DNA from: Crossaster papposus | Lineage: Eukaryota; Echinodermata; Asteroidea; Velatida; Solasteridae | Assembly (NCBI GenBank): GCA_037893245.1 | Contig: JBAIAA010000074.1 | Coordinates: 1,550,001 to 1,614,000, forward strand | Length of the DNA stretch: 64,000 nucleotides | Direction of reading: 5' to 3' | Shown here: positions 743 through 63,243 of the stretch, piece after piece | Position numbering within the stretch: the stretch's first letter is position 1 | Layout of the letters: every line of letters starts with the position of its first letter | Notes under the pieces: model-generated | What the model was told of the DNA's origin: nothing | What the model saw: only the letters and a program-made list of their open reading frames with translations | Database searches by the model: none | Program-made: the position numbers and the translations under genes

Positions 743-893
743 CCGACAGGCATCGCATTTGGCAACTCCTGGCTATACAATGACGACTGTGCTAACCCGA
801 TTGAGCCAGAAACCATTAACATGGGCCCATGTGACAGCTTGAGTGCTGAAAAACGAAAAGAAGTCGAAAATTTCTGTTCTAGATTGTTGACAG
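743..893 (+). CDS. Unit A exon: C8 domain, first half
   Basis: Phase 0 to 1, 151 nt. AG at 741-742 and GT at 894-895. The peptide has the FGNSW signature that opens C8 in this family, followed by a CANP segment and three further Cys-containing stretches. Homologous to the exons at 48027 and 56446. The VWD exons of unit A must lie upstream of the window. Confidence 0.85.
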
Positions 894-3800: not shown

Positions 3801-6800
3801 GTCTGTTGATTACTGCCGTAAGTAGTAATTCTCATCATTGGGGGAACTTTTAGGTTTTTGAAAATGGAAATGAACAGTCGCAACATTTGTATTAAAGAAA
3901 CTAGCAAACCTAGCTTTTCAAATTAAAGGCAGGGTAGACTATTTGTTTGCCTGAATTATCAGGAATGGGTGGATTTGGGGGTTATATTTTATAGTAAATA
4001 TCGTTTAACTGACCTGTTTGAAGTTTTACAATAATGGATGCTAAGAAAAAAAGCAAAAAAAAACGGTGTTCCTTTTCAACTGGCATTAGGCTGTTGTTCT
4101 TGTTTTTTTCGCGATCGCTCTCCGGCAATCGCGAATTTTTACAATAAAATTCAATTTTTCGGAACAATTACAGGATATCTAGTGCAATCATTTTGCTGGA
4201 TGCTAGTTTTGTGCAAAAATATATGGTTATGTAATATATTTACTTGTGTCGACAGATGTCAACTCCGGCAGTTGGTAAAAGCTAATCACATTCCGTTCAG
4301 TTATTGGATCCAAGTCCCTGTTCACACTTTTCCAAAATCTCACGTGTTGGACTTGGGTCGAACTCCCCAAGATTCGTTCACAAGATTTGTTCCCATTTCA
4401 CAAGGACCCAGCCCGAATTCTGCATGGGTACAGTGCTCTAAACTGGTTAAATCGACTTCTGGTTAGAATTAGAGTTGAGATGCTTTGCCCAGTGGACATT
4501 AAAAATATATATAATTGTGAAATAGTGTCAAGTGCGAACATATACCTTGCCGACCTATGTTGAAATAGACCTAGTTTCGATAAACGTAAACTCATGTTGA
4601 TTTTATTGATTTAATGTGGGATGGCTTCTATAGAGGGTGGCCCAACAACACAGACAATCCTACTTTCACTACCCTGAGACCAACAAATACCTATACCAAT
4701 GGATGGAGAATCTTTCTAGAAGAAAAATGACTACCAAGATATCTCGATTTAGGCCAGTAGTTTTAGCTGCACATCCTGTAGCCAGAGGTCCTTTCGCACC
4801 AAGAAATAACTTAACCATGCCCGCGAATATAACATGACATAGGAATTAAATATTTTGTTATAATTTTCTTCTAGAAAGATTTTGCATCCATTAGTATCTG
4901 TAGTTTTTGCCTCAAGGTAGTGGACTCCAGGCGCGGTTCAGAGCCAATATTTTAGGGGGGCTAGACCTTTCGCACGTGTCGTCAACTTCTAACTTTCGCA
5001 GATCAGTATACTTGTTTTCAAAAATGTACTTTTTAGTCCCTTTTTTTTTGGGGGGGGGGGGGGGGGGGGGGGGCTAGACAAAAATTTGGAGCCCCCCCCC
5101 CCCATGATTGTCTGTGGGTTTTTGGGTGGGCCACCCTGATTACAAATACAAGCTATACAGAGTAAAGCCTGCTTGTCTTTTACCTCAATTTGGATGTTAA
5201 CGGTATATAATCTTCTTCGCATTTTTGCCACAGCTGTGGAATGCCCGGAGGGTTCCCAATACAACCCGCGTGCCTCGCCCTGCCCTGAAACCTGTGTTGA
5301 CTTCCGGCGTGGTGTGGAACAAGAGGGGAGAGTGGAAGCGTGCGAATGTAACGAGGGTCTCATTCTTAGCGGCACTGAGTGCGTATCGAAGGCACAATGT
5401 GGATGCTACGATGAGCCAACTGGAAAATATTACCATGTAAGAGTTCAGTCCGTGTTCCTGGCTTTACCATGGAGCAATAAACTAAAAGGAGTTAGAACCC
5501 CTCTTATCTTAATCCGATTAGCGCCCAGGCTCTCCACCGTAGAGAATGCACTGCGCCCAATCATGGCCCAATGCATCAACGGCCAGCCTTTGTGCACAGA
5601 GATGGCCACCGCGTTTTCACTGGTAACCTTACGACTCTCCAAAAGCTGAACCAGCGAATAAACTAGATCAGTAAGCACTGTAATGACAGAAAGCTGAAAT
5701 TGAAATGTTAGTTTCTGTATAATAATACATTTTTCAAAGATTTTAAAAGGCTGAAAAATAACTGAAGCAGACAATGTCGACATGAGGAAAATGGTGATAC
5801 ATGTTGCACTGCGAGCCAAGTAGAGCCAATTGGTGAAATGTGCGTTCTAAAAAACAATCCAACGCGACTGGAATTTCCCGACTTTCCCGCGAGGCCATGG
5901 TGGCGCGTAATCTGATTTAGTTATTTCGCTTTGTTTACTGAGCGAGCTTTGTGGTCGTAAAGCTCATATTGGTGGCCTTCTGTGTTTCCTTTTATCTTAG
6001 GTTGTTCTAACTCCTTCTAGTTTTGTGCTCCATGGCTTTAATAACAAACCTCTGTGCCATGGGTACGATCTAGCTGTGCTATGTTTTCCCATTAACCAGT
6101 TCGCGCTGGATGACGTATATAAACGAAAAAATTCCCCCAAATTCAAAACGGATGACGCATAAACACGCCAAGTTCAAGTTCGGAAATGTATGTCAGCAGC
6201 GCGCAAGGCCGGAAATGCGTGGGTGTGCTTCCCGGCACTATCAGCCTGAACACGCTTCGGATCGAGTTTCGTTAAAAATAATCCCGCCCGTCGGCTCGGC
6301 GATGTTAAAATAATCCCGGCGCGAACTGGTTAAGGGTTGCGCAATCTTAACCCCTGGAATTGTCTAATTTAAATGTGCCATATATTGGGACATTTAAATT
6401 AAGACTGCAGTCGATGCGTTTAATGAGTGCTTTCAGTGTAAACTTTTTTTATATTAATTACTTTTCAAATATTGTTCTTCGTCTCCTATTTTAATTAAAA
6501 ACAAACTCACATACATGTATACTTGTGGGAAAGACCTTTGTTACCCCATTGTAGGGAAGATAGTCTATTGTTCTATTGTATTAACATCGCCACAAGGCTA
6601 TGTGTGGAAGTACAATAATAGCAAATAATTCCAACATGAAATATTTTGCCTTATTTATATATTTTTTTCATTACTGCTTGTACATGTAGTTATCCAAGCT
6701 GACTTTGAACAACCATGAAAGGACCAGATTGAAAGGAACAGTGATGAAAAGGCGTTTTTCGCATTTTGGATACAAACTCGTCATATTGTGCATCACTATG

Positions 6801-27800: not shown

Positions 27801-30800
27801 GACCCTTGGGTGGGAAGACTCAATTCTCATGTAGGGGTCATTAGATGTCATTGTTCAAATATGCTTCATTTTGTTTTACAGAATTAGATGGATTTTTAAT
27901 GGGTGGGTGATTCTTGGGTGGGGGTTCGTCGCGTCTCTTTTGAAATCTGAAATCTGAGGTCAAAGGTCATCTGTGGTCATATGAGGTCATTGTTTTAAAA
28001 AGTACAACATTTAGGTCAAGGGTCATTTAAGGTCATTTAAGGACACAAAACATAAGGCAATCAACCACGGCAAACAATGCCACTCATGATCTGCGGAATC
28101 ACTTGTTCATCAATTTTGTATTTTTTTTGTTTCTGTTTTAGTATGGAATCGTCACCTTTGGAGACAAGAATATTGCCTATCCAGGAGACTGTCCCCCAGC
28201 CACAATGCCTCAGATAAAACCCGACTGTACCTCAGAGGAGGAGGAGGAAATAGCACCGTTTTGTTCACCAATAATTAACAATAGAGGTGGGTTGAATTCA
28301 CAAAGCAGAAGTAGTAGATAAGATCTACAATCAAATAATTGGGTGGTAAATCATCCTTCCTCGCAGCTGGGATGCTGAATTGCGAAGGACGCGGCTACAA
28401 CGTTGTCGAGTTGATGGCACGTTAAGGTGCCTCTGGCAGCCGGCCTTACAAGCCATATTTGACCACGAAGCACAGCCAAAGATCGTAAATGTTGATTTTT
28501 GCGGAGGAAAAAAACCCGGAGGACCCAGAGAAAAACCCTTGTGGCACAGGAGAGAATCAACGACTAATTCTACTCAATTATGGTCCGAGCCGGGAATCGA
28601 ACCCAGGCCACATTGGTGAGAGACAAGTGCTTTTACACACTTGCCACCAATCCTTGCCACCCACCTTTGCCACCCACCCCACCACTAACCCTTGCCACCC
28701 CACCACCCACCCTTGCCACCCCACCACCCACCCTTGCCACCCCACCACCCACCCTTGCCACCCCACCACCCACCCTTGCCACCCCACCACCCACCCTTGC
28801 CACCCCACCCTTGCCACCCCACCACCCACCCTTGCCACCCCACCACCCACCCTTGCCACCCCACCACCCACCCTTGCCACCCCACCACCCACCCTTGCCA
28901 CCCCACCACCCACCCTTGCCACCCCACCACCCACCCTTGCCACCCCACCACAGGGGTTGATTCACCTGTATGCTCCCTAGGGAGCTGAGATTGTCCTTGC
29001 AATGTTTTCATTGGCCCAATGATCGCAGGGTCATAATGATGTTGCATTCCGAGCACCGATACTGCTGGGATACGAATTATAAATACACCTGTGTGTTTTT
29101 TTTATCTGCATTGAGCGCATGTACATTTTTGTCTTGGGTTAAATTTTGGTTTATTCTGTTACTGACAGGTCCATTCCGAAATTGCCCACAAGAGCTACTT
29201 GATGAGGCATTCACGAGCTGCAAAGCGGACAGCTGTGCTCTATATCACGACAGGATGATGCCAATCTGCGAGTCCTTGTCCTTTGTTGCCAAACTCTGCC
29301 AGAGATTACAGTTTGACGTGGACCCGTGGAGGATAGATGAAGAATGTCGTAAGTAGAGAGGGGCTATTCTTATCAATGCACCGATCCAGTAGTAAGCCAC
29401 CCCCCTTTAAATAATTAACCAATCACAGGGCAGGAATTAAGGTTCGGCAAATGTGACTGGCTCCACAAAAAATTAAGTCACACTGTGCATTATCATGTAA
29501 TGGCCCACTCAACGTTGAGATGGTAAACATTTCATCAAAAAGTGATTTTCATTTTTTGTCATGAATGACATCTTTTACTTTTAGTTTCAGGTTTCATTCA
29601 CAGAAATGTTGATTTTGATAAATAAAGTGAAAAAAAGAATGACAATTTTGTGTGCATCGTTCTGTTGTTCTACATCACAGCCAGCTATTTCAAAGCCTGT
29701 TTTCTCAGTTGTATAAATTCAAACTCCAAGGGAGTAATCCATATGCAAACATGTCATATCTCCAGAACGGGAGGGACTATGGAGCTCTATTATTTACCAA
29801 ATAAAAGCTTACATTATGGGCTTTCCAACCTACATACCAATTTGTTGTGGAGCGGTGGTCATTTTGTCCTACAATACTTTTTAGTATTTTACATTTGTAT
29901 CTCTTGTATGCTCTGGTTTCTTTATCAACCTTTTATTACAGTCGTAGTTAAGCGGTGTTATGTTAATTGTGAATCTGACTTCTGGTATCCTGAAAAACAG
30001 GAAAAGATTGTGTTTGTTTTTAGTGAAGGCGGGATGGAGTGTGACGAAGCATTTATTATGTACGTGAAGTTGCGAGCCGGTTGCTGACAGATATTTTTGG
30101 CCTTTAGCGTGACATGTTTATCCGTCATCCGTTTTGATTTCCGTAAAAAAAATTGCCTGTATACGCGGCATCTGATGCGAACTGGTTAAGAGTCTGATTT
30201 TTTTATTTTTTTGATCTATCACAGCGGTGACTTGCCCTGAGAATGCTGTGTTCAAGAGCTGCGCCAATGCCTGTCAGAGACGCTGCGGCCAGGCGGTCAG
30301 GCTTGCAGCCGAGTGCCCTTACCACTGTGAGGAAGGCTGTGAGTGCAAGGAGAACTACGTCTTGGATCACGATGGAAGCTGTGTACAGTCAGAAGACTGC
30401 GGCTGCTTCGATGAAGGCTACTACCACTTGGTAAGAGTCAGGGCTCTTTCTTATATAAACACCTCACCAAAAGTAAGTCCCCCTCTCAACAGTTCGTCAT
30501 AACATTGTCAGGTAAAAATTTTACCGATCAAACTTAGTTAAAAATAATCCTATGACTGTTTCCTAAATGTTGTTTGAAAATAAAAGATGTCCATAACTTC
30601 ATGGCTGAATGAGCTCAAATTAATGACAAAAACTGCCCTTCTCAAAAGTCACAAAAGTTTATGAATGGCTTCTTACTAATGGAAAAAACACCTGTGGTTG
30701 AATGCAGTTTAAAATACCCACCAAGTGTACATTACTCTAATCTGTAATCAATTCAGGATCATTCAACCATGCAAATTTCTTTCTTGGCTCAGGGCTTAGC

Positions 30801-33800: not shown

Positions 33801-36800
33801 GAATCATTATCTACTTCCAAATAAGTAAGATTTTTCTTAATAATTCGGTAGTAAATATTTTTGATATATGCAAATGGTGTATCCTACCTTTAAGAAGAAT
33901 CTTACTTGGTTTCTTGTTTTGGTTTACAGAGAATCCGTGCTATCCTAACCCATGCGAGAATGACGGCATTTGTGTCGTGACAGAAAATGAAGTGGCACCA
34001 TATAAATGTGTCTGTAAAGGACGATGGAAGGGAACACACTGTGACGAAGGTAACTCATTTTGTCCTCTCGTATTGTCTCGCCTAAAAGAAGTCCAGAAAG
34101 AGACTATGCAATCACTATATCTGTACGTTTTTGGTTGTAGTAGCAGCAACGACCTAAAGTATACTACAATGTACTATAGACACATAGGGCCAATTTCATA
34201 AAACATGTAAGCACACAAATTTGCTTAGCATGGAAATTCTTCCTTTAAAAAAACCCAAAGTTACAAATAAAATATTCAGGTGATGTTTATCGTTTGTGAC
34301 TGATATTTGAACAGCTGGTTTTTGCTTAGCATGAAAAGCACATAAAGTTTCGGCTGGTTACCTGTGTTATACATTTTTTGTGCTTGCGTGTTTTATGAAA
34401 TTGGCACCAGATACGATTAGAGGCAACATCCTCTCATCTTCTGGAATTCTAGAGGTTGATGCATGCCGTACCTTGCGAATAAATCTGGAAGTAATTTGCA
34501 ATAGCTTTTACAAATAACACAGAGCCAGATTGTGTGAATTTAATATTCAAAACACCAAAATAAGGTCGGTCGGAAATAAGAACCCCCCCCCCCCCCCAAA
34601 AAAAAAGGAATGCCCTACATGTAAGACAAATACAATTACAGTCAAACACCTTATAACAAGGTCCTTGAGTACTTTCTAAATACTTTTGTCTCAAAACTTT
34701 GAGCATCCAAAGTGGATGGCCGAGCGGTTAAGAGCACATGGACTCAAGCTCTGGTGTTTCTGATCAGCAGAGTGTGGGTTCGAGTCCCGGTCTTGGCATG
34801 TATGTCTTTAAGCAAGGCACTTAACCACTATTGCTTCGTCCTTTGGATGGGCTGTAAAGCTGTAGGTCCCGTGTGTTGTGTAATGCACGTAAAATAACCC
34901 AGTAGCACTAATCGCTAAGAGAAGGGGTTTACCTAGGTGTTCCTGGCAGTGGCTGCAAAGTATGCCACTGAAGCGCCAAGAGCGCCGTTTCACGACGGAT
35001 ACCGGCGCTATATAAGTATTCAATCATCATCAAAGTCCTATGTTATTTTGTTCTCTTACATTGATCTCATTTATTGTCTACTGTCAATGTTTGTCTCACT
35101 TTGTTCGCAACAAACAGCTCAATATTTGGTGGTTAACAAAGTAATCAAAAAGTACTCAACTACAACATTGTATTAAGTAAACTTGCCTTTTTCATCTTGT
35201 GTTGCAAAGGTATCAAATCCTGTTCCGTCAGTGGCCACACCCACTACGACAGGTTTGACGGTGAAGTCTTCAACTTCTACGGAACATGCAGTTACAGACT
35301 GGCCCAGTCCTGCGACGATTCCCAAAACTACTTCGTGGTGGTTCTGGAAAACGAACAGGATGACGAATTCCCAAACTTGCCTCGTATAGAGCAAGTTCAC
35401 ATCTACCTTAAGGACCATGTAGGCAATTTGTATTTACTTTATTAGGATTATTTTTAAATGAAATGACCACATTTAGGTAATAATACGGATTATGCAAATT
35501 TTCAAAGACACATTTGTGACCTGTTCCAACGAAACCCGGACAAAGTCAACTTTTTAGTTTTTCAGATTTTGCTTTTTTCAAATTCTCTAGGTTCTCAGCT
35601 TTAAAATGATGTATCATTTACATATGTACCCCCACCCTATCTTCCCTGGGATCTGGATTTAGTGATAAAACCCTGACAACCTAATTATGAGATAAACAGC
35701 TTTGAAGTTCAGAAAAGCGTATTATTTCTATACACAAATGTTTCACAAAATTGACAAAAAAACACACTTCTGGTAGACGGATTTTGTTCAAATTTGAGCA
35801 GATTGTAGATTAATAGTGAGTGACTTAGGAAAACCTAAAACCTCAAAATGGTAAAATCCATCCCGAAATGACTTCAGGAGTACATTGTGACAAAACACAT
35901 TGTGCGACTTGTCCGGGTTTCGTTGGAACAGGCCACATTTAATATTTGGTTTTCCCCCCTCACCGACGTATTCCTTCATAAACACTTGTATAATCGTAGA
36001 ATTTGTAGAATTTGAAACGAGTGTTGGCAATATAGGAGGCAATGTATACCTCGGTATCATTAGTCCTGATGCAAAATGTAAAGCCTTTTGGTCATTTGTG
36101 CAAGATTGCAGTTTTGTATTATTATTTATTAATTCTTTCTGGTAATAAAACAAAGAATCCCTCAAAAGTGCCCTCGTCACTGTAGCTCAGAAGAAACCTG
36201 TAGAGAGAAGACAATACTGAGAAGAAGGTACTGTTTTAGAGATGAGAGGAAAACTCCCAAAGAAATATCCCCGGGAAAACTCACGAAATCAAGCAGGGAC
36301 TAAAAACCCAATCCACATATTGACCCAGGTTGGATTGGAACCCGGGTCACAGCGGTGGAAGGTGGAAGGAAAGAACCGCTGCGCCAACTTGACTCTCCAA
36401 TTGATTTATTGTCTTTGCATCAGACCATTTTGATGAAGAAGGAGATGGAGTTTGAAGTCAACGGAGAGGAGCAACATTATCCCTTCATCCAGGAGGGACT
36501 TGAAATCAAGCAATATGGATGGATTGTGGTAAGACCTTTTTATGGATTTATCTCCTGTATCGGTCATTTGTGACCAGTCACCACGAAATGAGCTTAAAGT
36601 CAGAAAATGCCATTTTGCAGAACAGAGTGCGAGAGTCAACTTTTTGAAGAGGTGGTCAATTGTTTTTTTTTTTATGTGAACCCTAATCTGTAAGTCCTGT
36701 TTTACCTTTCTCCAATTTTGTTCTTCAGTCAAACATCTTTGAAACCTATTTCATCTCATTTTTATTATGTCGTCATTCATTCACTGTAAAGCGCCGGTCA

Positions 36801-39800
36801 CAACCCGCCGTACTTGCAAGTGCGTGCTGTCTACTTGCAAAAACGTGGGCAAAATTTGGGGATCCGTACGTGGTGAGTACCGCCTCAGTACAGATTTGGG
36901 AGCACGCAGACACGCCGTAGCACTTTTAGTGCACGAGGAACTTTCGCTGCGTTTGAGCTATGGATTCACCCCCAGTACGGGTGACGCGCGTGCCCTCTAC
37001 AGCCAATGAGCACACAATGCACTGACTCCATGAGTCTTTTTAAAAAAAATCACGGTCAGTTGCTCTACGGACGGCGCACTTAGCACGTGCGAGTGAGTAA
37101 GGATACCGTACGTGAGCAGCACGTGTAAGTACGGTCTCCGTACGATAACGGGCAATCACACGGAGATCGTACGTTGTAAGCACGTTGTAAGCACGTACAA
37201 CTCACTTACCACTTGCGCAACGTACGATGCATGCAACCGCTCACGGCCAGGCGTGGCGTGCGGGCCACGTACTTACACCTTGCGCAACCGTGAAACCGTG
37301 CGGCTGACCACACGTTTTCAGAAAAACGTGGCGGCCGTGGCCTCCCAAAAAAATGTACGGAATAAAAACACGCACGGTGGGTTGTGACCGGCGCTTAACA
37401 CAACGGTAGGATTTTAAATGCCATTTTTTTTAAGAATCAGTTTTACCACTTAAAGTATTTGGCTGGTCTGTATTTCCATTACTGAACTCGATACCCCTTA
37501 ATGATGTATACCTGTAGAAACTCTTGCTTATATGCAGAATCCAGGTATAATTCTGAAAAATTCCAACTTTGAGCTCATGTGGTATATCTCGACATCTTAG
37601 GGATGTATCACTGTTCACATTTAGTTTTCCCAACAGCAGCTCATGAAAGTGTGACGTGTGCATCTAAATTGATAGAATTGCCCTTGCTGTGTGGGTTCCA
37701 GTTTGATTAAGATGGGGAGTGTTCAGAGTTGGCTTTGGTTTAGTTTAGTTTGCTGGGAAGGGTCAGTTCCCGTATAGTGATTTAAGTATTTAAAGTGAAT
37801 CCTCACTGTTTGAGTTGTATGTTGTTTCTTATCTTGTATTGCAGAGGGTTTCCACTGATTTTGGTCTGGTGGTAGCCTGGAACGGCCGAGATCTAGTCGA
37901 TATCACTCTTCCATCTAACTACAATGAAGATGTCTGTGGCATCTGTGGCTCTGTCAACAATCAGGAGCCTGGCTTCGGGAATGTAAGAAGAATTTACAAA
38001 CACTGTTTTTTTATAACTGTATAGAAATATACAACTGAGAGTTAAAAAAAAAAACTAAAAAAAAAAATATCACATCAAGAAAAGAAGATCAGTTTTGTTG
38101 ACCAAATTAACCAGTTCGCTCTTGGATTATTTTGACATTGACCAGGCCCAGACGCGGGGTTGTTTTTCATGAACCTCGATCCTTGATGGGTTTAGGCCGT
38201 CATCTGTTGGTAGCACACCCTGATATTTCCGGCCTCGTTCGTGACGTGTTTATTCGTCATCTGTTTTGAATTCCAGAAAAACTTCACGGCACCTGATGCG
38301 AACTGGTTAAAAGGCATATATCTTATTTTTTTCCCACTTATTTCATAAAACTTAACAATGTATAAAACTCCATTCCTCGGGAAAACTGAGAACACAGATT
38401 CGTACATTACGCAAGTCGGCAACAATGACGGAAATAACTGTTATTGAAATTGAAAATGGAATGATGCCAATTATTTTCAACATTCTTTATTATTTATCCT
38501 CGATCCAACAGCATTCAAATTCTAATGACTATGTCGCAAACTGGGTCTATAACCCTGAAGACTGCCCGGATCTAGAAGAATACTACAAACCTTGTCACGA
38601 TAAATCCTGCAATCTACAAAAAGCTGTGGAGCAATGCGCCATTCTCATGTCACCATATGGTAGGTTGTTGAACCTTCAAAAAATTGTTTAAAAAAGGTTT
38701 ACCCTACAGGGTGCCCGACAGCCAGTTTTAACCCCAACTCCCTACCCCTTTATTTTTTGCACATACAATAAATCCTGCAAAATCCAGGGTTGTAGTCGAG
38801 TCCCTGCAAGTCCGTTCACAAGTCCTTTCGTGAAGCCAGTCACAAGTCCCTTTATAAAGGCAGTCACAAGTAACTGAATGAACAATGACAAAGGAATGCT
38901 TTTGTCAAAGCTGATTTGAATAGCTTGTGATTTGAATTTGAACTGAAGGACTTGTGATGGACTTGCAGGGACTTGCAGGGACTTGTGATGGACTCGACTA
39001 CATCTCTGGCAAAATCCTGCAACTCCAAAGTGTTTAAACTTCATGTAAACTAAATTCTCCAATATTTGTTACTGGTGACCACTGCCTGAATCCTGCAAAA
39101 TTCTCTGATGCATCAACTTCCAAGTGCCTTCAATCCTGCAAATTCCTCCATTTCGCAAAGATGATTTTTGAGGATTTTGGATGGTTAAGGTTATATGTAA
39201 CCGTTCTCTCAAAGGTCATTTGAAGGTAGTTCACTTGCTGGTGATTATCTTTGTCATTTGGCAGTTGCCTGTCCCACTGGGTGGTTCTCGCTGGACACGG
39301 AAGAGAAAGTTCACGCCTGTTACTACGTCTCGGAAGCAAGTGGTGGCCTGACCTACGCAGCGGCCCACCGCCAATGCCAGAGCAAAGGAGGCAGGCTGTA
39401 CGATCCCAGGACAGAGCTGGAAGCTTCGGGCTTCAGGAATCACACCGCAGAGTTGTTTGACAGCTCCTTTTGGCTGGGATGCACCGACGACGAATACGAG
39501 GGCCGCTGGAAATGTGGGAAGGAAGGCCACTTCTGGTCTACTACGGAAGAGAATGATGGGTACTGGGGTAAGTGTTCTTTCGCATCCGTGTCTAGTATGA
39601 AAAGGCCTTAATGCAGATTGTTTCAACTGCAATCTTAGATCTTCTCTGTACCCTCCTCTACTTAAGATTGCTCTTTCTTCATCAAGTTATAGATTATCTC
39701 CAAATATTTTGCCAAATTGAGGTTCCCAATTGTTCCCCCTGTTTTCTCCCTCAGCTTGGGACGAGGACCAACCCGATAATGGAGATAACGACTACATCAA

Positions 39801-42800
39801 GGAAAACTGCGCCCTGATCTTTGAAAACGAGAAGTGGCGAGATGTCTCCTGCAAAGCACGGGCCTCTGTGCTGGTCTGTCAACTGGAAAGCCGACGAGAA
39901 TATCTGAGTAGGTCTTGTTATAAATGATAATGTATCACCAACTGATAATGTAACAACAAAATGACAGATAGTGTAGTACATTTTTACTGCACTTTTAGTC
40001 ATGACATTATCTGTGAATCTGGTTGATAATCCTGCCTGATCAGTTCAGTCTAAGGTCCCAACTCCTTTGACTTAACGGGCAGCCTAGACCCCAAACGGTC
40101 TGGGAAGGAATTGGTATTTAATTGTCCGCTTAAACTTTGTAAAAGTTGAAGAACACACCTCGTCTTGTGTATCAATGTTGTTGTTTACCCATGTTCCATT
40201 TCTTTACTTCAGCACCATTCAAGAAATGCCACGAGGCCGTACCGGCCTATCCATACTTCATTAACTGTATCCAAAGCCAGTGCGCTACGCTACCGGATAA
40301 CGACAGACTGTGTTCATCCATCTCAGCGTACGAAGACGCCTGCCGACACAGTGGATCCTCTGTCGGACTGTGGCGAACCAGGCATTTCTGCCGTAAGAAA
40401 GTTGTTAATTCTGGAATATTGAAAGGAAGTAGTTTTGGGGGGTTGAGGTGGGAGTTGCAAGGAAAGTATTTTGCAACTCGGTGTCTATACTTAGAAAACA
40501 ACTTGGAAAACAAATTATTACATTGGGTTTTTATTTCTCAGCACTGGAATGTCCAGAGGGTGCCGACTTCAGCGAGTGTTCCAGTCCTTGCCCAGCGACC
40601 TGTGCTTATCCTGACAGATCCTGCGTGTTACCCTGCAAGCCCGGTTGCCAGTGTCGTGAGGGATGGGTACGCCAAGCAGACGATTGCATACGTAAAGAGG
40701 AATGCGGCTGCTTCGTAGAAAGCATGGGTCGGTTTATTGAGGTACAGTTACAATTACAAAAATTGACAAGATTTAAGATTTAGGGTTTAGTAAAGATTAT
40801 CTGTTGAACAGACTAAATCTTGGTTTAAGAAAGTCTTGTGCAGAGCAATTATACACACATTTGTATTACCTCATTATGGAAAAAAAAACTGATGTGGAGG
40901 TATTTTGGTGTGAATAACGTTTTAGCTATCAAAATTATTGTCAACTATAAAAGCCTGACCAAAGCCCACCCAAGCCCAAGTTGAAATCAGAAGACCACTT
41001 TGTAATTCCCATTCACGCACTGTTCAGAAATTGTTTCCCTCTCTGATGAATTCTGAGTAGATTCATTATCCACTTTAGGAGAAGGTTGTAGCAGATGCTT
41101 GAGGTAACCATTCATCAGTTGCCTTTTTCAATGTGACGTGGAGTGTCGTGGCCGGGCGGTTAAGAACCCGGCTTTCTGTTCCGCAGAGCGTGAGTTTGAG
41201 TCCCGGCGCGGTGTCGACACGTTTGTCCTTAAGCAAGGCAATTAAAACACTATCGCTTCGTCCTTCAGATGGGAAGTAAAGCTGGAGGTCCCGTGTGTTG
41301 TGTAATACACGTAAAAGTACCCAGTAACACTCATCGAAAGAGGAGGAGTTTTGCCCCGGTGTTCCTGGCAGTGCCTCGGTATAGGCAACTAGATTGATGG
41401 CACTTTACAAATGCAGATTGGATTGGATTGGATTGGACGTTACTGTGCAGCCTTGTTGTGGTTAAGAGACCCCAGGATTTCCTCATAAACCGACGCAAGC
41501 TGGTAACACTAGCTGGGTTCTCACTGTCCTGGAAAATTCTGGAAACAAGTTGTCATGAAAATTCATGAAAAAGTCATGGAAAAGTCATTGGAAATTGGGG
41601 GAAAATATGGAAAAGTCATAAATCAAGATCATCCATTAATTTTGATTGTCCGTTTTTGATGTTAAACAGAATATTGGATATTAGTTAAAACTTATTTCAA
41701 AAAAGCTAACAAATGGTGAGCCCAACATGAGCGGTTCATCAGGTTCATAATACCAAACAACTTTTTTTTTGCAAAATGGCGTTAAATGTCAAGGAAATTG
41801 TCGTATTTTTGTCATGGAAAGTCCTGGGAAAACCTTGGGAAAAGTTTACTGTGGGAACCCTGCCTGGTCACGGTTTTATTGACGGCCTATGAGGGCTGAT
41901 GTAGATTGCCTCCTGTTTCTTCCGTTACAGGACCTGCACCTGTCAGATCAAGACGGTGTGACCTGTGGACTTGCGGTCTGACTCAACCATTGTTCCTTCT
42001 TCTGTCTTGTTTTTGCAGCCAGGAAAGGCTATTTTCAAGTCTAACTGCATCGAGCTTTGCCACTGTCAGCCAGGCGGGGAACTGGATTGCGAGAAAGTCA
42101 ACTGTACTGATAATGCCAATTGTGTTGCCCGCGAGAACGGTCTCGGTTTTACCTGCCAGTGCAACCCGAGCTTCGTCTTTGAGGATAACGAATGTCAACG
42201 TAAGCCCAATTAACCTATATCCGTCCATGACCACTATCCAATCGTAGCGTCTGTTGAACATCGCACAATATTCCACATTAGCTTTAACCAGTTCGCATCG
42301 TGAATTATTTAAGCATCACCGAGCCAAGGCGCGGGATATTTTTTAACGAAACTGGATCCGAGGTGGGTTCAGACCGATGGTACCGGGAAGCACACCCACG
42401 CATTTCTGGCCTAGCTCGTGACGTGTTTATGCGCCATCCGTTTTGAATCTGGGAAAAACTTTGCAAGTATATACATCCTCCGGCGCGAACTGGTTAACAC
42501 ATTCAGACTCATTTTTGAGAGGTGAGCGCTTTACGCACCAGCCACCCATGCCACCTCAATCCTAACCTATTCCAACAAAACCTGGTGTTTGGAGTTTGAC
42601 CGGATGGGGAATGTTTATAGGGTTACATAAAATGTGTTTTTTTTTCTGCCTTTTGGAATTTTTCTTTGTCCCAGCGGATGCATGCGCTGGTGTGGAATGT
42701 GCTAATGGAGGGAGGTGCGTAGTCATTGATGAGGAAGAGTATAGCTGCTTCTGTGAGAGAGGCTGGGCAGGTGAACACTGTGAAGAAGGTAAAATAACAG

Positions 42801-45800: not shown

Positions 45801-48800
45801 ACAGTGTACATGTACGTCCGTCCTTATGTATGTGGCATTTTGGTAAAATTTGTCTTATATGCAAAACTGAAGTCCAATTGCAATCAAACTTGGGTCAAGA
45901 ATGTAATATTGTAACCTTCATAATTGTTGTGTTAAAGGTCAATTACTTATGTCAAAGGTCATTTGAGGTCAAGTTGTAAAATAGGCTGGAATTGTAAAAT
46001 TTGGTCTTATTTGAAAACTTGAAGTTTAGTTGCAATCAAACTGTTGGTTATACATGCAATATGGAAACCTGCATGCGAGTGTGACATCGAAGGTCATTTG
46101 AGGTGTCAAGTTGTAATATTGGAGTGTCGTGGCCGAGCGGTTAAGAACCCGGTTTTCTGTTCCGCAGAGCGTGAGTTCGAATCTCGGCCTCGACACCTGT
46201 GTCCTTAAGCAAGGCACTGAAACCACTATTGCTTCGTCTTTCGGATGAGACGTAAAGCTGTAGGTCCCGTGTATTGTATAATAATAATCATTATAATGCA
46301 CGTAAAAGAACCCAGTAACACTTATCGCTAAGAGAAGGGGTTTGCCCCGGTGTTCCTGGCAGTGCGTTGATCTTCACATTATTGAAGCTTCCGTTGCGTT
46401 AATGCCAGAATTGGTTACTGCAACGTACTCATACAGATACAGATACAGATTGGGTAATCATGAGAGCAGGCGAGACGTGGGGTTAAAGAACTATCCTTGT
46501 CTAAAATTATTGTCATTCCCCGTCCAGTCTTTGGGTAAAACACCACCATAAATAACACCACTGTACCAAAATGAAATTCTGTTTGCCAACTTGGAAGGAG
46601 TTCAACATTTTTTTCAACATTTGGTTTATTTAGTTTTTCTGCCTCTGTTTTGTTTTTTACTCAGGTTTTCCACTCGGATGGCTTGTATGCATCTTGGGAC
46701 GGCTACAGTAGCCTAAACATTCGCCTGGCAGAACGCTTCAAGAACCAGACTTGCGGTCTTTGCGGCAACTTTGACGGAGATCCCGAGAACGATTTGGTGC
46801 CCAAGAACTTAGACGAGGTGAGAGAGAATTGGACTCTGAATTGATGAAGGATTTGTGTGCGCAATCGCTGTTGAGCTATGTAGTCGAGTCCCCACTAGAC
46901 TATCACAAGTCCGACCACAAATCCCAAAGTCAATTAAAAAAACACGGTGGATAAATAATAACGCGGTTCTTTATGATGGGGATTTGTGACCCGATTGGGG
47001 ACTGAGTGACTTGCGAGGACTTGTGGACTTGAGAGAACTAGTGAATATTTGTGATAGACTTGTGATGGAATTAGGAGACTTGTTATGGACCTGAGATGAT
47101 TGGTGATTACTTGCAAAGACTTGTGGTCGACTTGTGAGTATTTGTGATGGACTTGTTATGGACCTGAGGGGATTGGTGATTACTTGCAAAGACTTGTGGT
47201 AGACTTGTGACTACTTGTGATGGACTTAAGAGGACTTGTTATGGACCTGAGAGGACTTGTTATGGACCTGAGAGGATTGGTGAGTACTTGCAAAGACTTG
47301 TGGTCGACTTGTGAGTATTTGTGATGGACTTGTTATGGACCTGAGAGGATTGGTGATTACTTGCAAAGACTTGTGGTGGACTTGTGGTGGACTTGTGGTG
47401 GACTTGTAAGTACTTGTGATGGACTTAAGATAGACTCAAGAAGACTTGTTATGGACCTGAGGGGATTGGTTATTACTTACAAGACTTGTGGTCGACTTGT
47501 GAGTAATTGTGATGGACTTAAGATAGACTCAAGAAGACTTGTTATGGACCTGAGGGGATTGGTTATTACTTACAAGACTTGTGGTCGACTTGTAAGTACT
47601 TGTGATGGACTTGTGAGGGACTTAAGAGGACTTGTTATGGTAATTGGTAATTAGTTGCAAAGACTTGTGGTGGACTTGTGAAGGACTTAGAAAGACTTGT
47701 TATGGACCAGAGAAGATTGGCGATTACTTGTGATGGGATTGTGATAGACTTGTTATGAACTTGTGAAGACTTGACTAAATACAAAATGTTGGCACATTTT
47801 AGCTTTTTCATGTAGCATAATTTTTTTTTTTTTGGGTGTTCTCTCTTTAAATCTTTTTTATTATTGATAAACTGCACTGGTCTGTCACTCGGAGGTTTTT
47901 ACTGCATTGTCTTTGCAGACCCATAATGCTGTTTCCAAAGTTAATACGAAACAAACAAATATATATGTATGTTTATTGAGATATGTTTTCTTTTTTTTTA
48001 CTCAATTAAAAAAAAACAATTCGCAGGTTGGGAGCCCAGCTGAATTTGGCAACAGTTGGTTGCAGAATGATGACAATTGTCGTCCCCACGAAGGAAACCT
48101 TGACCCGTTGTTTTCCCCTGAAAACTGCCACCGTGGGGCCACACAGACGCTGAGCCTCTGCAACAATCTCATGGGACATTTGCGTGGTAGGCAGTCTTTC
48201 ATAAACACTGCATTCTCCTTTGAAAATCGTTCTTTCTGAGTTTATGTGGACCTGTGAAAATACCGGCGGGGCCCGGGCCCTTAAACTGCAAGGGAAACGG
48301 CCAGCCTTGCGGGACCCATTCAGACAGGGTGCCGTGTGTCTGGGGGATCTTTCGTGGCCCGCCTTCCACGGGATTCTCCTGGAAAACTGCCTAGAATCAG
48401 TCTATCGTTACACTTCTATACAATAGTTCTTTCATTCTTTTGAAACGTTCTCATGCTTTTCCTTTGTGATAATTGTTCCTTCCGACACCAAGTTTTTATA
48501 TTCTCCACAGTTGATTGATTGTTTTTATTACTACCCATTGTCTTATATTTGTATACATTCCCGCCGTGAATATGGCCACTGATGCTGGCACGGCGTTAAA
48601 CCCTAAACTCACCCACTCACTGTTTCTGAGTTCACATATCGGAAATAATTTGGAATGAGTTTCATGCTTAAATGCCACTTATACGCCATCAAACACACAA
48701 ATTGGCACATTACTTTGTCCTTGAAGAGAGTACAAGCATAATGTGTTCCAAACTTGAAATCATCCAAAGTAAGATGGGTTTCTAGACCTTTTTGGGGGGT

Positions 48801-51800
48801 ACAAGTATCGTTCAAAAATCTGTCTATATGGACAGTCATATGTGACCTGTTCCAACGAAACCCGGACAAAGTCGACTTAGTTTTTCAGATTTTGCTTTTT
48901 TCAAATTCTCTAGGTTCTCAGCTTTAAAATGATGTATCATTTACATATGTACCCCCACCCTATCTTCCCTGGGGTCTGGATTTAGTGATAAAACCCTGAC
49001 AACCTAATTATGAGATAAACAGCTTTGAAGTTCAGAAAAGCGTATTATTTCTATACACAAATGTTTCACAAAATTGACCAAAAAAAACCACTTCTGGTAG
49101 ACGGATTTTGTTCAAATTTGAGGAGATTGTAGATTAATAGTGAGTGACTTAGGAAAACCTAAAACCTCAAAATGGTAAAATCCATCCCGAAATGACTTCA
49201 GGAGTACATTGTGACAAAACACATTGTGCGACTTTTCCGGGTTTTGTTGGAACAGGTCACATATTGTATATTACACTTAATGAGCACTTAGGGAGACAAA
49301 TTAGCGTAAGTTCTTAGGTAACAAGGAGACAGTGACACTTAGGGAGACATTTGAGTGTCTCCCTAAGTGTCTAGCTACCTTAAAAAAACCGATATTTGGG
49401 AGTTATTTTTGCTCTAGAACGACAGATTGGGGTCTAAATAGCATAAATCTCGAAGATCTTAGAGAAAAGGGTTAAGGTAAACAAGTTAGGACTGTTTTAA
49501 GTTTGTGTACATCCCTATGGGATTGTCTCCCTAATTTGTGCAAGATTGCAGTATTGAATTATTATTATATATATATTTCTGGTAATGAAACCAAGGATCC
49601 CTTAAAAGCACCCTCGGCACTGTAGCTCGTAAGCCTGAAAAAAACCTGTAGAGAGAAGATAATTTTATTTTGCAAGTGAACGTCCTAGGGTCTTGCTAGC
49701 ACTTAAACCCTGGATCCTAAAACTTGAGTGAATTTATAAACACAGCAGTTTTATCTAATCACAAGTTTCTATTTATTGTTAAAGTGCCATGACCAAGTGG
49801 TCTCGATCATTGAATTTGTGGTCTGCAGGTTGGGGGTTCAAGCCCAGCCTAGGCTAAGGCACTTCTACACATTTTATGGGTAGAGGCATTATTAATTCCT
49901 TGCTGTGGACTAGTTACCCACCCCAACCCTATTCATACTGTGAAGAGATCAGATTGTCTTGTTTCAGTGCGAGGGGCTGGTTCTTCCACACTTTCCTCTG
50001 GTAGCCCACACCTCAAGTGGCCTTTGGCCTTGTGATGGGCGATTTACATTAAAAATAAATAAATAAATAAACAATTGTTTTTTTAAATACTTTTAAGTGG
50101 AGAGAGGCAATCGTAGTAAAATGCCTTGCCCAAGGGCATGAGCACCATGTTCTCTGTCAGGGTTTGAACCCAAGTACTATTGAACATGGGTAGAACAGCA
50201 TTGCCACCGGACCACGGCGATCCACTGATTTTATTTCTTTCTTGTCCAGAACCGTGCGGCTCTGATTTCCAGCAGTGGTACATTGAACGCTGCAAGATTG
50301 ACGTTTGCCTACTCCAAGATCTTCACTACGGTTGTTCCTATGTCACTGCGGCTGTAGCGGAATGCAAGGCCAAAGGTGGTAGACCGGAACCGCGGGAAAT
50401 GCTGCCGGAATTCTGTCGTAAGTCCAGACATTTTAGTTTTTCTCAGACAAAGACACAATAGACCATTTTAAAGTCAAATACACCTAATAATTAGGGCATA
50501 ACAGGGTGAGGACCCGGTCATTACTGGGTGATAATTGACCGGGTTGGGCGATGACCAATGGTAATAGACCGAGCCAAAGGCGAGGTCTATTACCATTCGT
50601 CATCGCCCAACCCGGTCAATTATAATGCAGTGAATGACTGGGTCCTCGCCCTGTTATTCCCTTTAATAAATATCTTTTTATTTATGAAATAAACAGTGAA
50701 TTTGCTTCAATTTTTGAAAGCCCGGTCAATTACTGCGTGATAATGCCCTCCACGTGATCGAGTCTCGACCAATCAGAAGCTTTGAATTCTTCTAAGTATT
50801 TATTAATCTTGAATAGTAAATTACAAAGTACCAACATTACAGGAACGGGGAAAAAATGTCACACTTTGCAAAATGATCGAATCACCCTAAACTTGAGTCT
50901 TGTTTGACCTCTTTATTCGCAACTCCTCCCAGAGTATTGTACCCAGTGACGCCAAACGTGGTAGATATACTAAGTAGGCCACTGGGTATTTAACCAGTTC
51001 GCGCCGGGATTATTATAACATCACCGAGCCGAGGCGCGGGATTTTTAAAAACAAAACTCGATCTGAGGCGGGTTCAGGCCGATGGTATCAGGTAGCACAC
51101 CCATGCATGACCGACCTTGCTCGCTGCTGACAGACACTTACGGCCTTGCTCGTGACGTATTTATGCGTCATCCGTTTTGAATCTCGGAATTTGTTTTCGT
51201 GTATATACGTCCTCCGGCACAAACTAGTAAAATTTTTAATTAGGTTGCTAATTACCCCATTAATTAGAGTATGAGATTCATTCGCATACACGACGCCCTA
51301 CCTGTCAAAGCAATGGCCTTAGGGGGAAAGGGGGAACACCCTTATTGTGCAAGTAATAGTCTTAGAATATAAAAGATCTGCATCTTATACTGTGCAATGT
51401 CAACCTTCTGGATATAATTACTCAAACAAAAATACTAATACAGCATATACTGACTGTTTTTACGTGGCATAACCTTTTATGGCGACTCTTCCCAAATTAC
51501 CCGTGTTTATTTATGTTGTCAAATGCTGCCCAGGTGTGGAATGCCCTGACAATTCTGAATACAGCTTCTGCGCCAGTCCCTGCCCGCGAACCTGCGACGA
51601 TGTCCACAGGGACGCGGGGCGTGAAATGGTCGGAGAGGGGCGTCCATCATGCGAGGGAAAGCCTTGCGTGGAGGGCTGTCAATGCAAGGAAGGCTATGTA
51701 CAGAGCGGCCTGCACTGTGTACACGAAGACAAATGTGGTGGCCGAGATATCTTTGGTGGCGCCAAAGATATCCTTAATGGCGCTTACCATCGGGTAAGCT

Positions 51801-54800: not shown

Positions 54801-57800
54801 ATTTGTCGTCCCCCCCCCCCCCCTTCTTTCACTCTTCACCCTTCTTGCTTGTGTAGTTGTTGACGACTCCATTCGGCCTGACCGTCCGATGGAACGGCTA
54901 TTATGAAGTGGACGTCTGGCTGGACACAGATCTTCTGCGTAACATCTCGCTGTGTGGACTCTGCGGTAACGCTGACGGCGATCAAGACAACATTCTTGAC
55001 GCAACTCCGAACGGAGAGAGGGTGAGTCACTTCTTTTTCCCTGTGCACAGGGTTTCGACGGGTCATTGAAAGTCATCAAAAGAAAAGTTGTCCTGGAAAG
55101 TCATGGAATGAAAAGTTGTCCTGGAAAGTAATGAAATGAAAAGTTGTCGTGGAAAGTAATGGAAAGAAAAGTTGTCCTGGAAAGTCATGGAAAGAAAAGT
55201 TGTCCTGAAAAGTCATGGAAAGAAAGGTTGTCCTGGAAAGTCATGAAAGAAAAGTTGTCCTGGAAAGTCATGGAAAGAAAAGTTGTCCTAAAAAGTCATG
55301 GAAAGAAAAGTTGTCCTAAAAAGTCATGGAAAGAAAAGTTGTCCTGAAAAGTCATGGAAAGAAAAGTTGTCCTAAAAAGTCATGGAAAGAAAAGTTGTCC
55401 TGAAAAGTCATGGAAAGAAATGTTGTCCTAGAAAGTCATGGAAAGAAAAGTTGTCCTAGAAAGTCATGGAAATAAAAGTTCTCCTGGAAAGTCATGAAAA
55501 GAAAAGTGGTCCTGGAAAGTCAGGTATTTTTGGTAGGAAGGGAGGAGGCCATTATTAATTAAAATCTTATTTTCAAAAGCTAACAAATGCTTAGCCCAAC
55601 ATCAGCGGTTCATCTCAGTAGCATAATTGCAAACAACTTTGCTCTCCAAAATGGCGTTAAATGTCATGGAAATTGTCTTATTTTTTGTCCTTGAAGGTTC
55701 TGGAAAAGTTTTGGAATTTGTTTTCTCCGATTTTTGTAGGAATCCTTTATATCCAAATCCTATTCAAATTCAATTTGTTTTGCTCGTTGAACGCTATGGC
55801 TTTGTGCACATCCAGTATAAAATTAGTTGAGCATACTTTACACTGTGCACATGCAAATCAGTACGTCCTATCCACTGGCCTCTTCTAAGTGGTCGAAAAA
55901 TGCCGTCTCGTACATTTTACTGAGGTCAAATGTCATTCGTCAAATGTCAGTAGAGGGGTCATTGTTCAAGTATACTTAAAAATGTTCCTTTGACTACAGA
56001 TTTGGATGGATTTTCATGTAGCTTAAATGGAGTGATCCTTAGGTGGAGGTTAATCGGAACTCTTTCAGAATAGGTCATGGGTCATCTAGGGGTCATTTGA
56101 GATCGTCGTTTAAACAATTCACTATTTTATTTTTTGTACACAAACCTATAGGGATCGAGTGTGGGAAAAGGCGGCACACACGATCCGCGATTCGCTTGTT
56201 TTTTCAAAGTGCCTTGCGGGAAGCAGCCTTCCAAAAAATGACACAACTGTGAGGCTCGAAGACCTCAGCATGAATGGTGTCTAATATTCTGAAAGGGGGT
56301 AGTTCGATTGAGGATTACAAAAAAAATGGAGCAGAATTGGCCCGAAGGTGTTGTAGAAAGTGAATAATTTAAATAAAGGGCCTTTCAGGAGCTCCCCCTG
56401 GCTAGTCGCAGTTCTCTTTTAGGTTTTCTTTGTTTTTTTATTCAGGTCAGTAATTCAGTAGAATTTGGTAATAGCTGGAAGAAACCTGATGAGGAGTGTA
56501 CAGATCCTGGCGATGACTTACAGGATGCCTGCAACGGAGCCATTGAAAGGGCTGCAGCAACCTCAACATGTCAGATCATCCACCAGGAAAATGGTAATAG
56601 ACATGTGTAATCCAGACTTGTAGGCCGTGTCCAAAACGGGCTTCTAGTGGTACGGCTAAGTCTGTTGTCAGCCTGCTCATGCGTAGTTGTAATGGACAAA
56701 CACTTAGACAATAGCCATAGACAAGAGATTCTGACAGGGCCTCCCAATAGCCCCGCAAAATCACAGGTTCTTTTGGTACATAGCGTTATGAGAACAACCC
56801 ATAGGGTTTGTGTGTAAACTGAAATCTCTCTAATCTCAAACTCAGAACACTCAACAATTCTAAAATGTTCAGCATCACCCTAATTTGTCCTCTTCTACAT
56901 TTTCTTTCATTATACCCTATTAAACCCAATTTTACCTTGTTCTACCTTTACTGAACACCCAACGCGCTATGGGGACTTGAAAATGTCCCCACTACTCGGT
57001 CTGTCTTTTCCAAACAAAAGAGCCTGTCCCCCTAACGCAGTGAGTGCCTACCCAACTTATCCCTCAACTTATCCAACAACTGCACGGTATCACTGGGAGT
57101 ATATCTAATGTTATAAAGGCAGTGTGCACATGGAGAAACATAAACGAAATAAAAACACTTAATTAATACATAATATCTTACTTGACTGTAAGTGAATAAT
57201 ATAGCACCTGGTGTGCTGTCGTTTACAAGAAAATTTGAATTTTTGTTTCAATTTTCAATGATGGTTGCACAATTTTAATTGTTTCGACTGACAACAAAAT
57301 ATTTGAGGCGTTCTTGCGAAATGAGATGGAACGATGGGCACAGGCCACAGTGGAGAAAACTGAAAAAAGTCACTACTGGATGATTTTTGTTTACATTTTC
57401 TGATTTATTGATATTTGTAATCTTTGTTATGCCTATAAACTATGTTTTGTTTAGAAAGAGTATGGAAAAAAAAGTAGTGGAATAAAAGTGTTTTTAAGGA
57501 AATACAAATGTCATTTTTCCATATCACATGTACAAAACACGAAACTTCCAAGACCTTTTTCTCAATATTTTTCCTTTGCGACATGTTGATAAATGTGAAC
57601 TCTACAACTTGTTAATAGAAAGTCCGTTTGAAGCGCAACAAACAGCATTGTAAGGAGAATTTTATCCTCATTTCTGATACCTGAGAATCCTCATTTCAAC
57701 CTCTGCTTAGTTCCGTCTTATTTTGACTGAACCCTTCACATATGAGAACCATAGACAATTAAAAAAGAGACAGCCTTATCTTGAATACCCAGGGCCACTG

Positions 57801-60800
57801 ACCCAGCCGTTGATGTTTTCTTGTTCCTTTCTTAACCTTTCTTAACCCTTTAGGGCCGTTTAGTGAGTGTATCGTGGAGCTGGATCCCGCTATGTACCTA
57901 GATAACTGCATCTTCACTGCCTGTTCCTCAAGTGAAGCCACGGATAGATCCAACATCTGTAGCAGCCTGTTGACGTTGGAGTCCGCTTGCCTAGACCGCT
58001 CGCTGCCTGTCGGCTTCTGGAGAACACCCGGCTTCTGCGGTTGGTTGACAAGTTGATTTCAGGGTTCCCATAGTCATGGAAATCTAGAATTAATTTTAGA
58101 TGGGTCGCTTTTGATGTGATAACGGAATAATGGGTATTAATTAAAACATGCATGCAGGATTGTAAAACTACGGACAGGTCAGTTAAACGATATATTTACT
58201 ATAAGACACAAATTCACTCATTCCTGATAATTCAAGCACTTAACATGCGTAAGCGCTATTATTGATCGGTTTGGTGTGGGGCACGCGAGCAGCTGCAATC
58301 GGGTGAATGAAAACGTGCTCATTGTGGTCGCAATTAAAATTGAAAATTTAAATTTAAATTGAAATGTGCGATTATTGTTTTTTGGAATATACAGCATTTA
58401 ATACAGAGTTAACATTTCATCAGGTTAGTTGTTTAGCGCCATTCTTTATATTTTGAGATTTTGTGTAATTCTTATTAATATTATTATTATTAATTTTTTC
58501 TGGTATTGAAACCAAGGTTTCCGCAAAACGTTCCCTATGCACTGTAGCTTGCAAGCCTGAAGAAACCTGTAGAGAGAGGAGAGTTTTAGAGGTGGGAGGG
58601 AAACCCCAGAGGAATATCCTGGAGGAAATGCGCAAAATCAGGCTGGGACTGAAAACCCACTCCACATATTGGCCCCGGCTGGAAATCGAAACCCGGGTCA
58701 CAGCGGTAGAATGAGAAGAAAGATCCGCTATGCCAACCTGATTTCCAAGTTGCTTCAAATGATAAACATGCACAACTGACAAATGGTGTACTATCTCTTT
58801 AACCAGCTCGCGCCGGATGACGTATATAAACGCAAAGTTTTCCCCAGATTCAAAACGGATGACGCATAAACACGCCACGAAATGTCTTTCAGCAGCGAGT
58901 AAGGCCGGAAATGCGTGGGTGTGCTTCCCGGCACTATCGGCCTGAACCCGCTTCGTATATCTACCGTTGTGTTTTATAGTACCTCTTTGTATCTTTCAAC
59001 ATTTTCCAGAGCCTCGATGCAGAGGTGATTTCCAGTTTAAGCCCAGCACCCCCGCCTGTCCCCTTACCTGCCTGGAAGACATCCTGGAGCACAGCACACC
59101 TTGCCCCTTTCCCGATCAGGCTGGTTGTGTGTGCGGCCCACACCTTTACCTCAGCGGAGACGAGTGTGTGCCTAAAGAGCAGTGCGGATGCTTTTTTGAC
59201 GACCAGTATCGTAAGGTGGGTTCACTGACCCACAGTGTCTTCTCCTTTGTTGCCATCATGCATGTTCATTTGTTTTTATTTACTAAATGTTGAAATGAAG
59301 ATTTATAGGTTGCCTAGGTTGCCTGGCATGCGATCTGTGTGTTTTCTCTTGACGATTGGGTCAAACACGCTTTCCTTCTGCAAAATAAACATTTTATTTA
59401 AGCCAATACACAAGCAATCCAGCCCCAAGTCAGAACAGTGGAACGCCGCTATAACGAGAATTACAAGATCCACAGTTTTTGTTCGGTATATCGATCGTTC
59501 GCTATAGCGATTTTCAGCCGCCGGTCCATCGGGTTCCCAATTTTTCAAGATGACGTCTGTTCTTTTAAATAGCGACCCTCTTGTGCGGCCATACTTGCAG
59601 TTTGTGGCTTTAACACATTAGCGGCGCCCTCTTTTGACCATTGTTGGTGTAGTAGCATTTCTTACACCCCACGCAGAGTCACGAAACCACTGTCCATTCA
59701 TCTTTTCAATTCCGTTAGCAGCACATCTTAGTGGTTACTTAAAGATGACTTTGAAGAGGTGCTGACCATTGAATCATGTAATTACAAGTGTCTAAGCTTA
59801 TACATCACACTGAATTCTAAAGCAACTGTTGGATTTCCCTTTTATTCATTGGGGAAATAATAGCCTTCCATCTTAACAAATAGCACTTGCCTTTTGAGGT
59901 TCTGGAATTACACACGGCCTAAATAGTGTTTGACATGCCTAGTGGATTTTTACAAATCAGGTGACATAATTTCAACTGAAGCATGACAAAGGCGTCCCTT
60001 TGTTTTTTGCTTCATATTGCTTTTAATTGGATTAATACTTGGCTTGTGATCAACTAGTGAGTTATTTGCAATTGACTTGTGACCGACTTGCGACCGACTT
60101 GTGACCGACTCGCGACCCACTCGCGACCCACTCGCGACCCACTCGCGACCCACTCGCGACCCACTCGCGACCCACTCGCGACCCACTCGCGACCCACTGG
60201 CGACCCACTCGCGACCCACTCGCGACCCACTCGCGACCCACTCGCGACCCACTCGCGACCCACTCGCGACCCACTCGCGACCCACTCGCGACCCACTCGC
60301 GACCCACTCGCGACCCACTCGCGACCCACTCGCGACCCACTCGCGACCCACTCGCGACCCACTCGCGACCCACTCGCGACCCACTCGCGACCCACTCGCG
60401 ACCCACTCGCGACCCACTCGCGACCCACTCGCGACCCACTCGCGACCCACTCGCGACCCACTCGCGACCCACTCGCGACCCACTCGCGACCCACTCGCGA
60501 CCCACTCGCGACCGGGTAATATTAATATCTTTACATCAAGTAAGCTTTTGAACACAAATTTGGTTGGTTACTTTTTGAGTAGTTGCAAAAGGCATACTGT
60601 TCATTTTGGACCTACCTGTTTTAAAATTGGTTTCGATGTGATTTCCAACAGAAAGATGAGGTCTTCCTTATCGAGTCTTGTCAATATGAGTGTACCTGTA
60701 CGGATGATTGCCACCATGCCGGATGTGACCTGGAGACTTCCTTCTGTGGTGTCAAGGATGGAGAGTATGGTTGTCACTGCCAAGAGGGATTTGAAGATGA

Positions 60801-63137: not shown

Positions 63138-63243
63138 GTAAGTCAACGTTTCTGCTTTTGGGGGGGGGGGGGGGGGGCATGGAATTACTAGATGGATTGG
63201 CAGAGGGTGTTGAATAATTTCTTAGGGCCAATTTCATGGAGTT

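Follow-up and report, generated by a model that had tools for sequence, protein, structure and literature searches.

A C-type lectin domain encoded in frame within a C8 domain of a probable giant D-assembly protein of the sea star Crossaster papposus

How does a complete C-type lectin domain (CTLD) come to lie within another cysteine-rich domain, and would the two be made as one protein? The question is raised by 64,000 nucleotides (nt) of the Crossaster papposus genome (Echinodermata; Asteroidea; GenBank assembly GCA_037893245.1, contig JBAIAA010000074.1, positions 1,550,001 to 1,614,000 of the forward strand), hereafter the window, within which all positions below are counted. The window holds part of a large, intron-rich gene on the + strand, which extends beyond the right window end and consists of repeated units, A to F, with the order VWD, C8, TIL, TILa/E plus an EGF-like part, and EGF; it includes five C8 domains, and the sixth unit (F) starts at the right window end. 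An earlier note on this DNA had proposed that the intron which splits the C8 domain of unit C contains two extra exons for a lectin domain. Intron phases, coding signal, and profile matches support this: a complete CTLD with symmetric ends is nested in frame within the C8 domain.

The two lectin exons, 303 and 153 nt long and both starting and ending in phase 1, are confirmed by their boundaries, their phases, and their joint profile match: both have AG in front and GT behind, and joined they match Lectin_C (PF00059) with 42.4 bits over profile positions 3-106 of 107 (E 1.3e-10; the curated cut-off is 22.6 bits). The joined insert comprises 152 amino acids (aa) with one N-glycosylation motif and eight cysteines (at 3, 19, 38, 73, 84, 120, 134, and 143), among which the core cysteine pairs of a CTLD are present, with their pairing predicted. 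The motifs WLGC, QPDN, and WRDVSC, which the earlier note had named for this domain, were all found. When compared with solved structures (with one surplus junction residue in the query), the CTLD matched 29 distinct PDB sequences at E 0.001 or better, including conglutinin, Mincle, mannose-binding protein, tetranectin, and SP-D, the last being the best at 32.1 bits. In a tblastn search of the window with the joined product of the first C8 exon (C8a), the CTLD, and the second C8 exon (C8b), the sole significant match of the lectin part was 39264-39909; a second lectin was not found in the window, the four other lectin-part matches being weak (E 0.55 to 6.6).

The earlier description of the insert as a carbohydrate-recognition fold holds for the fold, which is that of a CTLD by profile, and is weakened for the recognition of carbohydrates. 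EPN or QPD, a Glu, and WND are the motifs of Ca2+ site 2, and the Asn of WND is a Ca2+ ligand. In the alignment with SP-D, QPD stands in place of EPN, the Glu before the ENC cysteine is kept, and W-R-D replaces W-N-D, i.e., the set of site 2 side chains expected of a sugar-binding C-type lectin is broken at WRD. Because the Asn of WND is replaced by Arg, classical Ca2+-dependent sugar binding by this domain is doubtful. Many CTLDs bind proteins.

In all five units, the C8a and C8b exons meet at the same place and at a phase-1 intron, as had been stated before, with gaps between them of 2744 (A), 882 (B), 1553 (C), 2063 (D), and 1260 nt (E). The phase-1 ends of the insert equal the phase of this intron, and this symmetry is compatible with the proposed exon shuffling. 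With the insert removed, the C8 domain of unit C matches its profile (PF08742) with 62.7 bits over positions 1-67 of 68; with the insert kept, 55.3 bits remain over positions 8-67. Since it is the best C8 of the five once the lectin is removed, the host domain is not decayed. The nested order of C8, CTLD, and C8 is indeed in frame, but the wording "first half" for the leading C8 part goes too far: the Pfam C8 profile starts at the last cysteine of C8a, and only 7-8 of its 68 positions come before the insert, so that the first conserved C8 cysteine, together with its helix, is split off by the lectin from the remaining domain. The residues between the cysteines that flank the site number 10-13 in 14 copies (six from FCGBP, three from MUC2, and five from the window, where unit C was counted without its insert), compared with 164 in unit C with the lectin; the count leaves aside the negatively scoring rows, of which FCGBP (8rde) has one and MUC2 (7pov) three, and the other matched PDB sequences. 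With 10-13 residues across these copies, the loop is variable in length. The C8 region of unit C contains ten cysteines, those of the other four units nine each; the extra one lies in C8a (38512-38659).

Both lectin exons also carry a coding signal. Against a codon-usage model built from the gene's remaining exons, they score 0.409 (exon 1) and 0.511 (exon 2) bits per codon in frame, compared with at most 0.117 in the other two frames, and both exceed the maximum of 0.338 among 175 stop-free intronic stretches (at least 45 codons, repeats masked). Their GC content is 0.57 and 0.51, vs 0.38-0.41 in the three flanking introns. Splice sites were scored by matrices trained on the other 30 acceptors and 28 donors of the gene, never on the lectin sites, which gave leave-one-out ranges of 1.2 to 9.5 for donors and -3.9 to 12.4 for acceptors; for the ranking of all 98 GTs and 91 AGs in 38640-40239, the flanking sites were left out of training as well. 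Donors 39567 (10.9) and 38659 (8.3) rank first and second, and acceptors 39755 (11.4) and 40213 (6.7) first and third. Lectin inclusion and direct splicing from 38659 to 40213 both keep the frame.

The explanation that we consider probable is that shuffling brought a CTLD of two exons, with phase 1 at either end, into the phase-1 intron splitting the C8 domain of unit C, and that the included lectin forms a knob on the D-assembly. With both exons included, the C8 chain would exit its core past the first conserved cysteine, make a self-contained lectin fold with eight cysteines of its own, and return to complete the C8 domain. On one of its C8 loops, the D-assembly would thereby bear a knob with the lectin fold, which could contact protein or glycan in mucus-, glue- or matrix-like material. 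From the sequence we infer that at least some transcripts include both lectin exons; both CTLD and C8 would then presumably fold in the nested product, and the knob presumably makes protein or glycan contacts. This nested arrangement is the simplest one that uses every exon.

Several observations weigh against it. Acceptor 39265 (5.7) is only sixth among the 91 AGs, and donor 39907, at 0.3 bits and rank 31 of the 98 GTs, lies lower than all 28 other donors in the leave-one-out scoring. The codon test has little resolution: 0.338 is exceeded by 18 of the gene's 30 other exons and not by the remaining 12, all of them C8 or VWD exons. Moreover, a protein search with the nested 261-aa product, silent on animals, gave no scoring homologue among 159 word-sharing candidates at an E limit of 1, and a search with the 1847-aa string of exon translations, silent on animals as well, gave none for the C8-CTLD-C8 region among 250 such candidates at an E limit of 0.001. 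As for the weak donor, 39907 is still the best phase-1 donor at this place: of the two further phase-1 GTs ahead of the stop, 39877 (-1.9) would lose the last cysteine and 39916 scores -2.1, and the GT at 39873 (4.4) is out of phase and loses the last cysteine, too.

Because donor 39907 is weak, partial inclusion is possible, and the lectin exons may be included in a fraction of transcripts only. A serious alternative, which overlaps with the nested reading and takes a minor yet substantial share of the probability, is an optional cassette: most transcripts would skip the lectin and encode a normal C8 domain, and a minority would carry it. The in-frame skip from 38659 to 40213, which restores a C8 of 62.7 bits, and the weak last lectin donor are consistent with such a cassette, but no acceptor in the region outranks 39755 and no donor there outranks 39567, and two other donors of the gene, the next weakest, are almost as weak as 39907 in leave-one-out scoring (40741, 1.2; 56593, 1.9). 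It is conceivable, if rather unlikely, that the lectin is splice-switched, i.e., that one D-assembly of a repeating secreted polymer is made with or without the knob in its C8 loop, in a ratio set by the weak donor 39907. If true, the animal would tune the stickiness or the selectivity of the polymer.

That the lectin insert is a relic, or is rarely used and without function, is improbable. The same donor and the Arg in place of the WND Asn would suit a relic, but the frame has stayed open over 456 nt, all eight cysteines are kept, and the codon score beats that of every intronic open reading frame (ORF) tested. Even less probable is retention of the intron after lectin exon 2, which would give a shorter protein that ends shortly past the lectin and lacks a nested domain: past the weak donor 39907 the frame continues for six codons and then meets two stop codons, as such a product would need, but in a pattern search of 38661-40215 the only AATAAA or ATTAAA was at 38767, with none past the stop, and the downstream C8b is intact. 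Least probable of all is that the lectin exons form part of another gene nested here or arose as an assembly artefact: nothing was found in favour of this, the phase-1 donor required upstream and the phase-1 acceptor required downstream are both supplied by neighbouring exons, and no further lectin exon was found in the window.

Table 1. Exons and related features of the D-assembly gene, in window positions.
Feature	Positions	Strand	Remarks
Unit A C8a exon (control)	750..893	+	
Unit A C8b exon (control)	3638..3817	+	C8 41.8 bits joined
Unit B C8a exon (control)	28142..28286	+	
Unit B C8b exon (control)	29169..29348	+	C8 37.0 bits joined
Unit C VWD first exon	35210..35442	+	Pfam VWD 44.4 bits; 3' end placed approximately, without a GT
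Unit C last VWD exon	37845..37982	+	Pfam VWD 34.4 bits on longer stretch 37794-37994
Unit C C8a exon	38512..38659	+	Linker, first helix and first conserved Cys of C8; AG/GT, ends in phase 1
Intron 1 of insertion	38660..39264	+	Contains 226-bp palindromic element 38784-39009
CTLD exon 1	39265..39567	+	303 nt, 1-1, 5 Cys, WLGC...WKC; Lectin_C 27.4 bits alone
CTLD exon 2	39755..39907	+	153 nt, 1-1, 3 Cys, QPDN...ENC...WRDVSC...VC; Lectin_C 15.7 bits alone, below cut-off; weak 3' donor
Unit C C8b exon (remainder of C8)	40213..40392	+	Pfam C8 61.0 bits; starts with 2 bases
Unit C TIL exon	40542..40741	+	Pfam TIL 44.7 bits
Unit C TILa/E and EGF-like exon	42019..42199	+	Pfam TILa 27.9 bits
Unit C EGF exon	42675..42788	+	Pfam EGF 33.9 bits
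Unit D C8a exon (control)	48027..48186	+	
Unit D C8b exon (control)	50250..50417	+	Weakest C8: 19.2 bits joined, below Pfam cut-off 23.7
Unit E C8a exon (control)	56446..56593	+	
Unit E C8b exon (control)	57854..58039	+	C8 53.8 bits joined
Unit F open frame with first VWD exon, GDPH	62868..63188	+	VWD match

The setting of the nested domain is a D-assembly: unit C carries VWD, C8, TIL, and E/TILa in that order, all matched by Pfam (Table 1). In the other units, TIL lies above the Pfam cut-off in all four of A, B, D, and E (31.6, 48.1, 46.7, and 26.1 bits), and EGF is matched in each of them; TILa passes the cut-off in A and B, falls short of it in D, and has no match at E 0.01 in E. The E exon of unit E (60652-60820) is cysteine-rich and in register but without a match to any Pfam family at E 0.01, while those of A to D do match. 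VWD exons were matched in B, D, E, and F; the final one of E, with 20.8 bits, lies below the cut-off, and for unit A none was found within the window. GDPH, an autocleavage motif discussed for FCGBP in passages of PMC10880436, occurs once in the + strand frames of the window, at 62937 in the VWD of unit F; units B to E are without an FCGBP-like GDPH in these frames. Among solved structures, FCGBP (8rde, 8r0t) gave the top matches to a profile of the five C8 domains, followed by MUC2, MUC5B, MUC5AC, and VWF (18 distinct sequences). The gene product is probably a giant secreted protein of the FCGBP/mucin/adhesive-protein type, in which D-assemblies (VWD-C8-TIL-E) are linked by EGF domains; secretion is presumed, no signal peptide being in view.

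The palindromic element just upstream of the lectin (38784-39009, 226 base pairs (bp)) has 20-nt ends that are 90% complementary, shows two short matches to a tandem array near 47037-47707, and might be a miniature inverted-repeat transposable element. Two direct repeats of 1554 bp each, 12062-13615 and 20836-22389, are 100% identical and flank a PNMA/gag-like ORF (14736-15758, 37.2 bits); together they look like a recent long terminal repeat retrotransposon, located in the intron that separates unit A from unit B. About 444 copies of the 9-bp unit CCCAACTCC with 98% matches (7205-11217) lie in a unit A intron and form an array that is open in several frames and could mislead gene finders. A dispersed repeat at 41139-41437, which by eye looks like a short interspersed element, has copies at 2125-2404 (minus strand), 34757-34954, and 46120-46365 that are 81-88% identical. 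The open frame 63226-63633, which we take to resemble the tail of a non-LTR reverse transcriptase, has no Pfam match at E 0.1.

Exon shuffling usually adds whole domains between domains. In unit C, a complete domain has apparently entered a disulfide-rich domain via a phase-1 intron in a loop, with the sequence of the host domain kept. Among the matches listed in literature searches on lectins with D-assemblies, nested domains, and lectin splicing, which covered titles and abstract openings, no description of a CTLD inside a C8 domain was found; the passages of a study on a ctenophore report diverse CTLD combinations, none with C8 (PMC11797021). Within the scope of this literature, the domain of unit C would be the first CTLD nested in C8. 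The combination of a lectin with VWD, C8, TIL, and EGF is already published in tandem order, and only the nesting appears to be new.

A close likeness in domain content is to adhesive protein 1 of flatworms (Mlig-ap1 of Macrostomum lignano, Mile-ap1 of Minona ileanae, and homologues), large proteins in which, according to passages of the papers, one CTLD is combined with VWD, C8, TIL, and a series of EGF domains (PMC8621496, PMC6410801, PMC6745481). The order given in the relevant part of PMC8621496 is CTLD, then VWD, C8, and TIL: compared by description, the flatworm CTLD is a separate tandem domain before VWD, whereas here it lies inside C8, and the unit is repeated. Sfp1, likewise a large protein with D-assemblies, also has domains of lectin type and EGF domains, with DS, vWD, CTL, C8, and EGF listed in a table of PMC7037938, but its lectin domains are termed galactose-binding (PMC6410801), and the passages compared describe no nesting. 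By sequence, the CTLD itself resembles those of collectins (SP-D, mannose-binding protein), Mincle, and tetranectin; it differs from them by QPD instead of EPN and the Arg for the WND Asn, both as aligned with SP-D, by its cysteines at WLGC and WKC, and by being nested in another domain. With FCGBP (IgGFc-binding protein), the gel-forming mucins, and VWF, the product shares repeated D-assemblies, and these are the best structure matches of its C8 profile. As described in parts of PMC10880436, C8 packs on the VWD sandwich via two helices in solved D-assemblies other than FCGBP D10, whereas in D10 it sits on top; a mucin dimer disulfide is located in C8, according to a passage of PMC11933400. 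The difference from FCGBP and MUC2 lies in the loop between the site-flanking cysteines, where their six and three copies all stay within the short range given above, in contrast to the lectin-bearing unit. The insertion would mark this C8 loop as one at which D-assemblies, the assemblies that make up mucus, clotting polymers, and marine glues, naturally accept a graft.

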